Assembly (NCBI GenBank): GCA_021307315.1
Contig: JAJSPD010000018.1
Location: 124,001-188,000, forward strand
Reading direction: 5' to 3'
DNA length: 64,000 bases
Origin: Bisporella sp. PMI_857
Taxonomy: Eukaryota > Ascomycota > Leotiomycetes > Helotiales > Helotiaceae
In this document: piece after piece, positions 35,955-48,026 of the stretch
Layout of the letters: every line of letters begins with the position of its first letter
Numbering within the stretch: position 1 is the stretch's first letter
Translations under genes and position numbers: made by a program
The notes under the pieces: model-generated
Told to the model about the DNA's origin: nothing
The model's input: only the letters and a program-made list of their open reading frames with translations
Databases searched by the model: none

Positions 35955-37487
35955 TTAACTTGCATTTATATTTCCCATGCCATTAGGTCCAAGTTTTCCT
36001 CCTCCCCAGATAGTCCTGTCATTGTTATTCACAAAACTGCCACGATAAGGATATGACCAAATTAGAGCTCCCCAGCTGGGGTGATCGCTCAGACCGGAAC
36101 CTGTCGCTAACAAGTTATTAGTATCTTACACTTGGTGAGAGACCATCCATAACTCACGCCGTTGTTCTCCTCCGGCTGCATCATAGGTTTGCTTTGCTTT
36201 GGTAGTCCAAGGTGCCTTCAACCCTCTTTTGACAACGTATTGATAGTAAATAATCTGTATAATCAGTCTCGTTTTTGTTTACGTAGGCTAAGGGAAACTC
36301 ACATCCCACACTGCCTGCGTTTTGGAAGTGCTGCTTAATTGGCCAAGACCTCGACTGATGTTTGAAGGCGCGGCCCATGGCCCGTTGATAAGAATTGCTT
36401 CGCACCGGTAGAACTTGGGATCGTACGTAACCTCCTCTCCCAGATTGTACTTTGCAGTGTACTCTGCAGCTTTGAGTAGCAAATTATCTCCCAGTGAGTA
36501 TACGTCAGTCCCTTGTGACTGAACGACCCTCGCAGCTTCTGCAGCCCATCCAATCGCGGAAGAGGCATGGCTTTGGTCTCTTCCAGTTTCCGCGCCTTGA
36601 CCTGTTCTTGGATCAAAATTTCCATAAATGCCAGCGCAAAGATCGTTCTGATAAGCGTTCAGGGCATAGTTGTACTGTTGATCTGTCAGATACACCGAGA
36701 TCTTCAAGGAGAATCCTAATTTCGTACCATGGATACATCATCGAGAAATACAGAAAATGACAACAACGCTTTTATACTAGCCATGCCATAGTTTGCTTGC
36801 CCTATGATGATGGATTGGCGTGCAAATAGCCAGTAAATTTGGTTAGAAAATCCAGTTCCGCCACCTGGTTTTGCGCCTTTCTCAATCCAACCACCTTCCC
36901 ATCTCATAATCTCGGCCGCGTTGACAAACATATCGCCTTCTAGCCCTACAAGGAGAGAGGTGTCAACCCCAATGACATCAGTCAAATTCGTCCCCCAGGA
37001 ATCCAGAATATTTGTAGACAAGTCCCAGTGTGCTTGATCTTTGGTGATGTACCACATTAGAGCGTTCTGGTAGGCTGCTCGAGCATCATTTGTGAATGTG
37101 GTATAATTACTGCAGCCTCCCCGACATATCACTCTCTTAGGTCCTTGCATGGCATACTTTGTAGTTCTTAGTCTCTTCTTCCTATCTTGTGATTAACATA
37201 TAACTTACAGATGACTGAGAGAAGCTATCTGTGCTGAAATTTGCAAATGCCGACTTCCATGGATCTTGGCCATTCAATACTCCCTGTCGTATGCGTTCTA
37301 AGTCATCGTGCGTATGCCAGAGACCTGGATGGATAAAGTCTCCAACTCTCCTTTTCATGCCATACAGATTGCCCACCACTGGATTGACAGGTCCATTAAG
37401 AACTGGGAGACCATTGAGACCTCCAGTTGCTAACGCAGACGAGAGAAGGGTTACAAACCCGATCAAGAAATAAAGAATCTTTGTCAT
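35955..37487 (-). CDS. Secreted alginate-lyase-domain protein, paralogue 1
   Basis: Predicted 440-residue secreted protein with the (alpha/alpha) alginate-lyase fold seen in fungal polysaccharide lyase-like proteins. A signal peptide (ILYFLIGFVTLLSSALA) precedes DFIHPGLWHTHDDLERIR, the start of the domain. Other conserved pieces are ANYGMASIKALLSFSVFLDD and GQGAETGRDQSHA, the latter a predicted active-site loop, and a C-terminal WGALIWSYPYRGSF. Exons on the minus strand: 37209-37487, 36728-37156, 36303-36674, 36158-36254 and 35955-36100. Introns are 48-57 bp and phases close throughout. It is homologous to the gene at 43180-44400 (HPG.LHT, GRDQ.HA), but the intron positions differ completely. 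Likely cleaves uronic-acid-containing polysaccharide by beta-elimination. The exact substrate is unknown, and some fungal members may lack lyase activity. Confidence 0.85.
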
Positions 37488-42412: not shown

Positions 42413-43179
42413 AGCAATGCTTCTACTTTTTATATTTGGAATTTTCTTTACGGCTCGTGTTATTGTGTAAAGCCCTGGGTTAGAGTGTTTTTTGGATATT
42501 CTTTTCAAAGGACAATTGACCTCAACAAACTGTAGCTCCCAGTTGTGAGCATACTACACCGCGTGAAGGTTTATCGAGAACACTACTATTTCCTAAACCA
42601 ACTCTAATCACTGTCTGCTCTCTCATATACTTATTCCTTCCTGGCTAGCCTACGGCGCAGGAATATCAAAGAAAAACGAATGTATAATCGTCCTGAAAAC
42701 ATTTACGCGGCCTTAGTTTATGTATGGCAGGGTTCAAAGAAATGTGATGTAGATCCGGGGAATAGATCTGGGGAATAGATCTGGGGAATAAATCCGGGGA
42801 AAGCGCCGCCGGCAGCTACCCCGTACTTGGAGTTCGATACGATCAGCACCGGGTAGTAATTTGCGATCTTCAGATAGATTTTCCTAGGTAGATAGTCATA
42901 GGTGGAATCCTCCTTGCTCTCGAAGCGCATATGTCTTATTACATGACTACTCCCCAGGTCATATGGCTTTCAGAGACTTCTCGGGTAAGCTACTGATGTA
43001 TTCATGGTGCACATGACTCTATAGTTTCGACACCGTTTGAAATTCTGTAAATCTTAACATAAATAATTCATGCCTCGTTACGTTTCTTGTTTTCTCTCCA
43101 CTAGTTTTAGATGCTGATAACCAAAATAATCAGTATCATGGGCTTTGAGATAATATCCATCAATTTCAAATCAATCACC
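42413..43179. other. Intergenic with a 13-bp tandem repeat
   Basis: Upstream of the second alginate-lyase-like gene. Contains the tandem repeat at 42750-42799. No supported gene. Confidence 0.6.
42750..42799. repeat. 13-bp tandem repeat, about four copies
   Basis: The unit is AATAGATCTGGGG. Two copies are exact (42761-42773, 42774-42786) and are flanked by a partial TAGATCCGGGG (42750-42760) and AATAAATCCGGGG (42787-42799). Located about 380 bp before the alginate-lyase-like gene start. Confidence 0.9.
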
Positions 43180-44400
43180 ATGGTACTCATTTCACAGATT
43201 GCATTCTTTGTCTTTGCATTAAATACAGTTTCCGCATTTGTCCACCCCGGCATGCTTCATACTGAGGCCGATTTCACCCGAATGAAAGCCAAAGTATCCG
43301 CAAATGCAGCCCCTTGGATCACTGGATGGAACAAGCTGATAAGCAACTCCCATTCCGCAAGCACATATGTCGCCAGGCCACAAGCAATTGTCTATCGTGG
43401 AGGTGATCAATCTCAGAATTACAATATACTCTTTAATGATGCTGCTGCCGCGTATGCGCTTAGCCTTCGCTGGAAAATAACGGGAAACACATCCTTCGCA
43501 AATACCGCAGTGGGGGTATTAGATGGATGGTCATCTACTCTCACCTCAATTCAAGGTTCGTCAGATAAATATCTTGCAGCCGGACTTTACGGATATCAAC
43601 TCGCAAATGCTGCCGAAATCCTGCGTGGCTACGCCGGATGGACAAATGCGGGTCAAGCCAACTTTAGCACGATGCTTCAGAATGTTTTCTACTCAATGAA
43701 TCATGACTTCCTAGTCCGCCATAACGACGCTGCAAACGACCACTACTGGGCCAATTGGGACTTGTGCAACTTGGCTTCAGTCATCTCGATTGGAATTTTC
43801 ACCAGCAACCAGACGATGTACAATGAAGCAATCACATATTTCAAGGGTGGTGTTGGCAACGGCAATATAGACCGCATGATTTGGAAGCTGTACACAGTTG
43901 ATGGCCAAGTTATCGGTCAGGGACAAGAGGCTGGTCGAGATCAAGGTCATGGTGAGTGCACGGTTAAGACCCATTGTCTTTTAGAGACTCTGACCTTCAC
44001 AGCTACCCTTGACTTCGCACTTCTCGGTACGATAGCCCAGATGGCCTACAACCAAGGCGATGATCTTTTTGCCTACGAAAACAACAAGATCCTAGCTGGT
44101 AGCGAGTACTGCTCCAAGTATAATGTGGGAGAAGACGTTCCGTATACGTCGTACACAAACAGCGATGTTACGCAGTCCGTCATCTCTAACAGCTCCAGAG
44201 GAAATATTCGGCCTATGAACGAACTCCTCTATGCTCATTACCATGAGTTAAAGGGGTTGAATGCGCAATGGACAGGCAACTATCGGGACATCGTTAATAA
44301 TGCCAGTGGTGGCGCTGAGGGTGGTGGTGGGAATTACGGTCCTAACTCAGGCGGTTATGACCAGCTGGGTTACGGAACTTTAACCTTCAGATTGTCATGA
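43180..44400 (+). CDS. Secreted alginate-lyase-domain protein, paralogue 2
   Basis: Predicted 389-residue secreted protein. The start chosen is ATG 43180 in a good context (ACCATGG), giving the signal peptide VLISQIAFFVFALNTVSA directly before FVHPGMLHTEADFTRMK. An upstream in-frame ATG at 43111 would bury the signal. Conserved pieces are YLAAGLYGYQLANAAEILRG, NDHYWANWDLCNLASVI and GQGQEAGRDQGHA (predicted active-site loop), with a glycine-rich C-terminus. Exons: 43180-43951 and 44003-44400. The only intron is a 51-bp element nearly identical to one in the next gene. It is free of stops and a multiple of three, so the open frame runs through it. Skipping it restores GH-ATLDFALL, matching the SHASS of paralogue 1. 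Presumed polysaccharide lyase, substrate unknown. Confidence 0.87.
   Translation: MVLISQIAFFVFALNTVSAFVHPGMLHTEADFTRMKAKVSANAAPWITGWNKLISNSHSASTYVARPQAIVYRGGDQSQNYNILFNDAAAAYALSLRWKITGNTSFANTAVGVLDGWSSTLTSIQGSSDKYLAAGLYGYQLANAAEILRGYAGWTNAGQANFSTMLQNVFYSMNHDFLVRHNDAANDHYWANWDLCNLASVISIGIFTSNQTMYNEAITYFKGGVGNGNIDRMIWKLYTVDGQVIGQGQEAGRDQGHGECTVKTHCLLETLTFTATLDFALLGTIAQMAYNQGDDLFAYENNKILAGSEYCSKYNVGEDVPYTSYTNSDVTQSVISNSSRGNIRPMNELLYAHYHELKGLNAQWTGNYRDIVNNASGGAEGGGGNYGPNSGGYDQLGYGTLTFRLS
43952..44002 (+). repeat. Introner-like 51-bp intron, copy A
   Basis: Starts GTGAGTGCACGGTTAAGACC, has a CTGAC branch-site candidate and ends TTCACAG. It is phase 1 in the second alginate-lyase-like gene. It matches 45501-45551 at 48 of 51 positions with no gaps. 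The homologous site in paralogue 1 (35955-37487) is uninterrupted. Intron identity rests on the protein join and on good splice signals. Confidence 0.85.
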
Positions 44401-45246
44401 GACTTCGGGGTCTTTAGCATTATATATCCTTTGAGTATGACAAAACCAGGGCTTGAGAGTTGAACTTTTATTGTAATGTTCCAAAATCTCAGATAACTTT
44501 CAATTGGCTATTTCGTACATCAATTCCCATCGTTCGCTGCTGGTCGGGGAGTGGCCGGGCGAAGCTCCGACACTTCCTCCGCCCCCGAGCAAGCATCCAC
44601 AACGAGTATCATGCGGAGATACAAAACATACCCATTAATTGTGATGCGTAATTAGATCAGCATATATGAATCGCAAGATACAATCATTACCTTCAGTATC
44701 CAACATCAAATCTTTCGGTGATTAGGGTTGAATAACGAACATAGTTCGTGCCTGTTGGATACATGGATAATTCACCTCACCCAAGTAACTTTGTGGCACT
44801 AATGGCACAGCAAAGCGAACTAGTATACAACCAAAATTAAACCAGGATTTCCGTACCAAGCCATGAAACCTCCAAAACCATTCTAGAATGCCCTACTTGG
44901 AATGGTTGTCATGTGACTTATCACATGATGATATATCTTTCGCGGATTTACTATGTGCTTCAATTTCGCTATGTATTTTACCTTGATAGATAATAAGTAC
45001 AGTAAAGTATCATACGACAAGACTCCACACAGGAGGACCGTTCTATTAGCTTTATCCACCACTCGTACCGTACCCCGCAATTTCTCCAGATCCAGTCTTT
45101 CCCCATTGCCCCCACACACATGCTTGCTAGTCTGCTTGTATTCATGCATGCTATTTGCATCAACAGAACAGCTCCTCCCTGAAACCCTTCGAGCCCTTGA
45201 GATAAAATTATGAATCCATAAGTCTCGCCTTTCGAATGTTGCAGCA
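44401..45246. other. Intergenic between lyase-like gene and Zn2Cys6 regulator
   Basis: About 0.85 kb. Contains the second copy of the 25-bp near-palindromic motif at 44909-44933. No supported gene. Confidence 0.55.
44909..44933. repeat. 25-bp near-palindromic motif, copy 2
   Basis: Begins TCATGTGACTTATCACATGA. It differs from 21602-21626 at two positions (C for T and A for G). Lies about 310 bp before the regulator start. Confidence 0.6.
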
Positions 45247-48026
45247 ATGACCTCCAATGCGGAAACCACTCACCAGGCAGATGAAGAATACTTCGACAAC
45301 ACTAGCAAACGTAATGCAAACAAATCAAGCAGCAAAGGAGGCAAGGTAGGGGCGGATGAGGAAGGCCCAGCGTAAGTCGAATACTGTACAGCTATATGAG
45401 TAACCTCAGACTGACACCATGATGCTAAGATGCCATTCATGTCGAAAGAAGAAAGCAAAATGCTCAAGGCGATCACCTTGCTCTCAATGTGTGAGGTTCA
45501 GTGAGTGCACGGTTAAGACCCATTGCCTTTTAGAGACACTGACATTCACAGATATAGAATGTGTTTATGATGACCGAAGAGGAAAGCCTGGACTACGTAC
45601 CGGTGCCGTGGAGAACCTGAATCAAAGAGTTGGTGAGTGAGGCCTTCAGTGTCACGTGGAGCATCAAATTTCTCGCATGATATTGATCTTAGCAAATGGA
45701 CTTCGCTAAGGCCTACTACTTTAGTGGCATTGGAAAACATGTTTCTGGGACAAGGTATATTGTGGCAACAAGTCTGGCGTTGCCTCAATGCTATTCAAGG
45801 ACCAGTGCAGACATCAAACGTCGCAGAAGCCCATCAAGTAATTGGGGACAATGACCTGGTGGAATCTATCAGCCGTTTGAAGTCTACATTATCAAGCCTT
45901 CCATTGGACTTGGATCTTGAGGCACCAGATACCGAATCAAATCGGCCAATAAAGCGACGGCGTCGAAACAGCAACACAGAAGAAGAGTTTCTACAGGACA
46001 TACCTCCCATCCGGAGTGAGATGGAAAATGACTTGCCTCCCGATGATTTGATTGACTCCCTGGTTGAAATATATTTCGCAAACATCCATCCATGGATACC
46101 CATTCTCCATGTTAGACAGTTTCGCGAAAAGAAAGCTAATCCGGCCTTACGCCCCAAACTAACTACTATATTCCATGCTATAGTTTCCCTGTGTGTCCGA
46201 TTCTCATATGACCCAAGACTAGAAAATTCAGAAGTAAGAACAAGATTTTCCAAGAAAAGCAGAGAAAAGGTTATTTTACAGAGCATGGAATCTTTCTCTG
46301 TCGAAAACCTTCAAGCTCTCATAATCTGTGCATTTGATACGGTAGAGCTTCCTTCCCTCTTGGCCTTTAGAGAAACTCGCTAAATTCAATAGATTGGTAG
46401 TGGAAGAGGACCATCAGCTTGGTCTATGGTTGGAAGCATGACTAGAACAGTTGAACAGTTGCAGCTCAGCATTGAGGATGAGGACCAACGCCAACCGGCG
46501 GAGATTCTCATCAAGCGAATGGCTTTCCTCCCTCCGGCTAAAAGCTGGACTGAAAGAGAAGAGCGTCGGCGCGTATTCTGGAACATCTTCTTGATGGACC
46601 GGTTTTGCAGTATTGCTACAGGATGGAACTTCTCGCTGACTAGTGCTGACGTTAAACGACGACTGCCTTGCGAAGGTGCATTGTGGGAAGAAGGAAAACC
46701 GCTTGAAGTTCCTACTCCGTACTTCGGTGTTGGAGACAAATCAACCGAAGGCGTCTTGCCAACCAACCGGCCCGAGTCACAAGATCAAGCCTCAATTGGA
46801 GGGTTTGCATATTGTATCGAGGCATCTGAGAGCTTGAGCTTAGTTACAACTTTCTTTCTTAGGCACGCTGTCAATGTTTCCAACATGCAAGATGTTCAGA
46901 TGTGGTTAATGAGGTTCAAAGAACTTGATTTAAGGCTTGTGCAGTAAGAAAACTTCTCAAGATCAAGCATCTCATTTGACTGATTTTGTTTTATAGATGG
47001 AAAATATTTCTTCCTGAAAAATGGCGAGAAGCCTGCGCGCTGAACGCCGACGGAAGGCTCGATCCAAACCTAACCCTAGCCCACATAACTCACAATACTG
47101 CAGTAGGGCTTCTGCACCAAGGGATTGCGTATCCGTCAGCAGAGTGGCAAGCAAGTCGTATTCGTCTCCCATCCCTATCCAGCGCCGAGACTTGTTTAGC
47201 AGCGGCAACGGAAGTAGCGGTCATTGCCGAAAAGTACCTTGAAGGCTCTACATCACTAACAAATCCGCAATTTGCATTCTGTCTCTTCATAAGCGGACGG
47301 ATGCTCCTAGCGCATGCATCTCATTATAATGTTGCATTGCCACAGGAGTTTGACTCCTTAATACGAAGCCTTGAAGAAATTTCAAGACGATGGAATGGTC
47401 CACACGTGCAGGATAATTCGGAGAGCAGAACAGAAAACCTTGCTTCCAAGTTCGCTGGGAGATTAGTACAAGCACGAGAGCAAGGCCCACACTCGTTGGA
47501 TATTCGGGAAGCTGCCTACTCCGACGAACAGGCAAGCGCTTCTAGACATGATGGCCTTAATCCGGCTCAGGGCAGGACGCCACAGTTTCACACCCAACAT
47601 TTTGGCTCCAGTCCTGTGAACAATTTGCGTTCCAGCCCTGAGCTCAGAAACAACAAAGCGCCAGAAGCTTTCCCACAAAATCCAGGACAGGCAGGCTCTG
47701 ATCAATTCGTCGTGGCGGAACAAGAAGGATCGCCTGACAGCATTACGCTTGCGTTTCCCCCACTGCCTCTAGCATTTCAGCCTCACTGTGCAAGCGCAAC
47801 TCATACAACAATGCCTTCTCCTTCAGTTATGAACATGCAGCAACAAAACTTATATTATGGGCAACCAGCAGAAACGGGCTTTCCAGCAAGCAATTTTCCA
47901 GATAACTACGGCGTCTCTGGTGGTGGGTTGGATGACCTGAATCAATTAAACTCTTTCTTCGAATATTCGTTTCTACCTACTCAGCGAATTAGCATGTTTT
48001 CTGGGCAGCAGGATAGAGAAGTCTAA
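45247..48026 (+). CDS. Zn2Cys6 transcription factor of the carbohydrate island
   Basis: Predicted 824-residue regulator. Exon 1 codes a polar leader. The Zn2Cys6 cluster is assembled over three exons: CHSCRKKKAKCSRRSPCSQC then VRFNIEC (spacing 2-6-5-2-6), followed by a short leucine-heptad linker (VENLNQRVVALENMFLG). The middle homology region is clear: LVEIYFANIHPWIPILH, then ICAFDTIGSGRGPSAWSMVG, and EERRRVFWNIFLMDRFCSI. The C-terminal 250 residues are S/Q/P-rich. Exons: 45247-45371, 45430-45500, 45552-45632, 45725-46341, 46393-46943 and 46997-48026; all phases close. The second intron (45501-45551) is copy B of the introner-like element and lies inside the DNA-binding domain. Retention would disrupt cluster spacing without breaking the frame. 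Position between a lyase and GH88/MFS suggests a pathway-specific activator. Confidence 0.9.
45501..45551 (+). repeat. Introner-like 51-bp intron, copy B
   Basis: Same length and orientation as 43952-44002, differing at positions 26, 38 and 44 of the element. It is phase 1 here as well. Removing it restores the sixth cysteine spacing of the Zn2Cys6 cluster, which shows it is normally spliced. Confidence 0.88.

Follow-up and report, generated by a model that had tools for sequence, protein, structure and literature searches.

Gene content and predicted splicing

The window analysed here, a 64,000-nt stretch of the Bisporella sp. PMI_857 (Helotiales) genome, carries two neighbouring genes on the plus strand: an alginate-lyase-like gene with one intron (43138..44400; PF05426, Pfam 2.1e-11) and a Zn2Cys6 regulator gene (45247..48026; PF00172 and PF04082 by Pfam), represented by a six-exon model. 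The lyase intron (43952..44002, plus strand) and the second intron of the regulator (45501..45551, plus strand), which separates Cys5 from Cys6 in the zinc cluster, are both 51 nt long and in phase 1. In what follows the lyase gene is treated as the likely recipient of a derived intron copy, and the regulator gene, whose intron position appears to be old, as its putative source.

The lyase protein is identical to a public Bisporella sp. PMI_857 entry (P0001), and the public models of the two genes (P0001 and P0121) splice out both segments exactly at these sites, although such models may themselves be predictions and so are not direct proof of splicing. The original prediction had held that removal of the segments restores a lyase loop and the zinc-cluster spacing, and this is what we found: the spliced lyase reads GRDQGH|ATLDF, and the spliced regulator has the canonical arrangement C-x2-C-x6-C-x5-C-x2-C-x6-C. 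The lyase site is free of any insert in all 120 proteins compared (the best 120 of 2957, own protein included). The splice signals, the homology and the public models agree in predicting that both segments are spliced in vivo.

The start ATG of P0121 sits within intron 1 (45372-45429) of the present regulator model (region 45247-45429). Since several regulator homologues have an upstream exon, ending in GPA, ahead of the zinc cluster, the first exon is probably missing from the public model. Elsewhere, in Cadophora sp. M221, homologues of the lyase (P0022) and of the regulator (P0133) have locus tags three apart and lie on contigs that are both given as 73,158 bases long, so the lyase–regulator pairing may be older than Bisporella.

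A near-identical intron in two unrelated genes

Aligned with MAFFT, segments 43952-44002 and 45501-45551 are identical at 48 of 51 bases and align gaplessly, in two neighbouring genes that are unrelated by Pfam. The copies lie 1549 bp apart on the same strand. Position, length, identity, absence of gaps, shared orientation and phase were thus all as originally claimed, as were the splice signals of each copy (GTGAGT at the start, a CTGAC branch candidate and CACAG at the end). Among the direct repeats listed for the window none is longer than this pair, and a scan of the window with a consensus pattern allowing up to 3 mismatches returned exactly two matches, against 0 in 100 dinucleotide shuffles.

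The similarity is confined to the introns and stops at both splice sites, in non-paralogous hosts, as in introner-like elements. Identity of the flanks is about what chance would give (8 of 30 bases on the left, 7 of 30 on the right), and the bases adjoining the intron differ between the two copies on both sides. Given this absence of flank homology, we rejected duplication or gene conversion of a segment that included the flanks, and an assembly duplication is unlikely given the different host genes, the different flanks and the three differing sites. No target-site duplication had been seen at first reading, and the junctions bear this out: in-register repeats there amount to 0-1 base. The longest out-of-register direct repeats near the junctions, 3 bases in the lyase and 4 in the regulator, we take as chance.

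Age of the regulator intron position

Of the regulator paralogues in the same genome whose zinc cluster was recognised, the two closest (L013 and L015) are both split by a phase-1 intron at this very codon, between Cys5 and Cys6; these introns are 50 and 57 nt long and unrelated in sequence to the present one. Over 18 paralogue loci, the zinc-cluster pattern was interrupted in three (representing two genes, as L015 and L026 are the same gene), unbroken in 13 and absent from two (L016 and L028). The next closest paralogue with a cluster, L018, reads through the position and has no intron there. The intron position is therefore common to the nearest paralogues and is not universal across the superfamily.

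A second line of evidence comes from the public regulator homologues (119 besides our own, from the best 120 of 741), many of which are closely related to one another and so not independent. The zinc cluster is intact in 72 and not intact in 47 of them. In 12 of these 47 models the alignment begins precisely on the split codon (residue 66); starts fall within residues 63-73 in 21 of the 47 and elsewhere in 26. A pile-up at residue 66 is what would be expected if gene models break at an intron there. A Clonostachys protein (P0217), considered as a case of an unspliced intron at this position, was dropped because the splice phases did not fit. Because L013 and L015 share codon and phase while their intron sequences are unrelated, we infer that the regulator position is old and that this member of the pair is an ordinary old intron.

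An apparent intron gain in the lyase gene

The lyase site gives a different picture. Two lyase paralogues from the same genome (L008 and L011) both read through it, and the nearer of them has an unrelated 47-nt intron elsewhere in the gene; these paralogues are distant, the nearer one showing 45-51% identity in pieces. All 80 of the bacterial loci kept for comparison (of 250) likewise run through the site without an intron. A formerly intron-less recipient site, as in described cases of intron transposition, is thus indicated by L008, L011 and the 80 bacterial loci, and these comparisons make the lyase intron appear to have been gained, at a new position.

The window holds a second, diverged alginate-lyase-like gene at 36400-37200 on the minus strand, about 6 kb away and 37-40% identical in pieces; Pfam gave no match on a fragment of this other lyase. 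The fungal lyase (43138-44400) is also 47-59% identical to enzymes of many bacteria (L034-L113). In a tree that included 45 of the 80 bacterial loci, together with 38 of the 120 proteins compared above, fungal and bacterial lyases fall on opposite sides of one branch (L008, among the 39 fungal rows, is misframed there and is to be disregarded). Transfer of the lyase between kingdoms, in either direction, is possible. As the tree is unrooted and gives no direction, a bacterial origin of the lyase was not used as a reason for the intron-free state of the site.

With an old position in the regulator and an apparently gained one in the lyase, the simplest reading is that copying ran from regulator to lyase. 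The opposite course appears quite improbable to us: here the old regulator intron would have had its sequence overwritten by that of a lyase intron from some unknown source. In its favour, the suspected reverse-splicing events in one study were mostly at positions that already bore an intron (PMC3443670); on this view, however, two events are needed and the lyase intron must have an origin of its own, for which the genome searches described next gave no candidate.

Copy number in the genome

A third copy was not found in the 55.64-Mb assembly when the 5' and 3' 25-nt parts of the element were searched with up to 3 mismatches each, patterns that can miss copies diverged by more than about 12%. 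BLAST with 71 bases against the same assembly returned the same two places only, the second at an E value of 2e-15; the genome search scores the best candidates only and skips very common words. A 19-nt core gave one extra match with 3 mismatches, on contig C156, which we take as noise since such matches numbered 3 and 2 in the reversed control. As a control we used 43 other predicted introns of the window, namely 18 (14 predicted and four from the regulator model) plus 25 of 46 candidates, some of which are mechanical predictions and possibly not introns. All 43 recovered themselves and none (0/43) a further copy; sharing of introns is thus not general here.

The original prediction had named the pair introner-like elements and proposed a search of the whole genome with the 51-bp element. 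At the sensitivity used, the searches yield two copies and no family, and with two copies only and an old position in the regulator the label is unsupported. Introner-like elements are described as occurring in hundreds of near-identical copies and as being recently gained introns (PMC4457414), a description from which the regulator copy departs, while the lyase copy does look gained. It is the copy number above all that keeps us from filing the pair with them. The marks of DNA-transposon-like introners were likewise not seen, the in-register repeats being 0-1 base long and the fold unmarked. In terms of fold energy (not symmetry) the two copies gave z-scores of -0.81 and -1.02, with 37 and 34 of 200 shuffles folding as well, and the idea of a structured element was rejected because the folds are no better than those of shuffled sequences.

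It could still be supposed that an introner-like element once spread, and that its family is small or has decayed so far that only this pair can be recognised. The exact intron boundaries, the sense orientation and the absent target-site duplication would suit such a history, and neither target-site duplications nor terminal repeats are reported for fungal introners (PMC9860276). We nevertheless regard a decayed family as improbable: neither the 25-nt halves nor BLAST produced a third copy, the match to the 19-nt core on C156 is no better than the reversed control, the folds are unremarkable (z about -0.8 and -1.0) and the regulator member sits at an old position.

Reading frame of the shared segment

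The element is free of stops in phase 1 alone, with stops in phases 0 and 2, and both of its sites are phase 1. Left unspliced, it keeps the reading frame of either gene open and adds one and the same peptide, ECTVKTHCLLETLTFT. The three differences between the copies (one transition and two transversions) are all synonymous in phase 1, with a chance of about 0.009-0.012 in a test conceived after the data were seen. A modest reading of these observations is that a phase-1 insertion is better tolerated.

A bolder reading is that the segments are not introns at all, or not only introns, but a coding insert or a retained-intron cassette shared in frame by the two proteins. In the cassette form, a retained intron would add the same 17 residues to an enzyme and its presumed regulator, and selection would keep the peptide. 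Retention would alter both the zinc cluster and the lyase loop, the spliced forms would both be active, and the neighbours would have one splicing switch in common. The length of 51 nt, the shared stop-free phase, the identical peptide and the synonymy of three differences out of three (p about 0.01) are all in keeping with this idea. On the other side stand the canonical splice and branch signals, the removal of the segment in both P0001 and P0121, the lack of an insert at the site in any of the best 120 of 2957 lyase proteins, the change that the insert would make to the spacing of the zinc cluster and the post hoc nature of the synonymy test; we consider a coding insert very improbable, and the cassette, with its selection on the peptide, equally so.

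Proposed mechanism of copying

We think it probable that the old regulator intron was copied once, and cleanly, into the neighbouring lyase gene, most likely by reverse splicing. On this view the lyase gene, 1.5 kb upstream, would have received the second regulator intron whole, bounded precisely by its splice sites and with its orientation unchanged, and would since have spliced it out as a new intron. We are less sure of the route, which may have been RNA-based: the excised intron would have been reverse-spliced into RNA of the lyase or DNA being transcribed nearby, and the product then reverse-transcribed. The phase-1 site was perhaps tolerated because an unspliced transcript would add 17 residues without ending the protein. 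The source intron can be identified elsewhere in the genome, as in described intron transpositions. The ends of the copy coincide with the splice sites, and the junctions show neither microhomology nor an in-register duplication beyond one base, a pattern that fits reverse splicing.

A local route would account for the choice of a neighbour as target. By simple arithmetic, a random target in 55.64 Mb would land this near with a chance of about 6 in 100,000, a figure that overstates the case for a local route because the pair was noticed only since both copies lie in one window. Local spread, which the original prediction had offered as a possibility, may indeed apply to the pair.

The main rival to reverse splicing is local copying at the level of DNA, in which break repair or template switching moved the 51 bp and selection kept a copy that was splice-competent and in frame. 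A distance of 1549 bp on the same strand suits local template switching, and end-joining repair has been proposed for seamless intron insertion in Hypoxylon (PMC8469720). Moreover, the concurrent intron loss that would mark an RNA step could not show in a gene with a single intron. Template switching explains the closeness of the two copies but not their exact ends, however, and a random repair patch would not favour ends that coincide with splice sites and lack junction microhomology. For these reasons we hold copying at the DNA level to be possible but unlikely.

Reverse splicing is itself disputed as a source of introns (PMC3443670). The discoverers of fungal introner-like elements reportedly favoured it, whereas the authors of PMC8469720 found it unsatisfactory for their own introns and proposed double-strand-break repair; a mixed form, in which break repair takes up intron RNA, has also been proposed for other fungal introns (same paper).

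Relation to known systems and significance

Single copying from regulator to lyase, the reading we prefer, has partial parallels among known systems. The pair resembles introner-like elements and introners (PMC4457414 and PMC9860276) in having near-identical introns in unrelated genes, similarity limited to the intron boundaries and no target-site duplication. It differs from them in its two copies, which fall below the four-intron cut-off of the survey in PMC9860276, in its unmarked fold and in the old position of one member. As in intron transposition (PMC3443670), an entire intron, splice signals included, turns up seamlessly at a previously intron-less site of another gene; here, in contrast, an old intron of the neighbouring gene likely served as source, the event would be a single one and the RNA step is our inference. 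The sister stwintrons of the Hypoxylaceae (PMC8469720 and PMC12403724) are likewise a case, from filamentous ascomycetes, in which entire introns are copied at low frequency with no tandem site duplications, but they have terminal inverted repeats, occur in tens of copies and are either nested introns or derivatives of these, whereas the present intron is short, simple and present in two copies.

A 2012 review recognised 14 unambiguous intron-transposition events and, in the portion available, no in vivo demonstration (PMC3443670); a later paper (PMC6726248) cites such a demonstration in Saccharomyces cerevisiae. In our literature search neither the copying of introns between adjacent genes nor the introns of Bisporella turned up as a subject, a weak negative given its thin coverage of subscription papers. 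The broad survey of introners kept families of at least four (PMC9860276); single pairs thus lie outside it by design, and copying from neighbour to neighbour may have been overlooked.

The origin of new spliceosomal introns is debated, and there are few cases in which both source and recipient can be identified. In Bisporella, a likely old source, an apparently new recipient, exact ends and three differences would make both the direction and the mechanism of the copying testable in sister strains.
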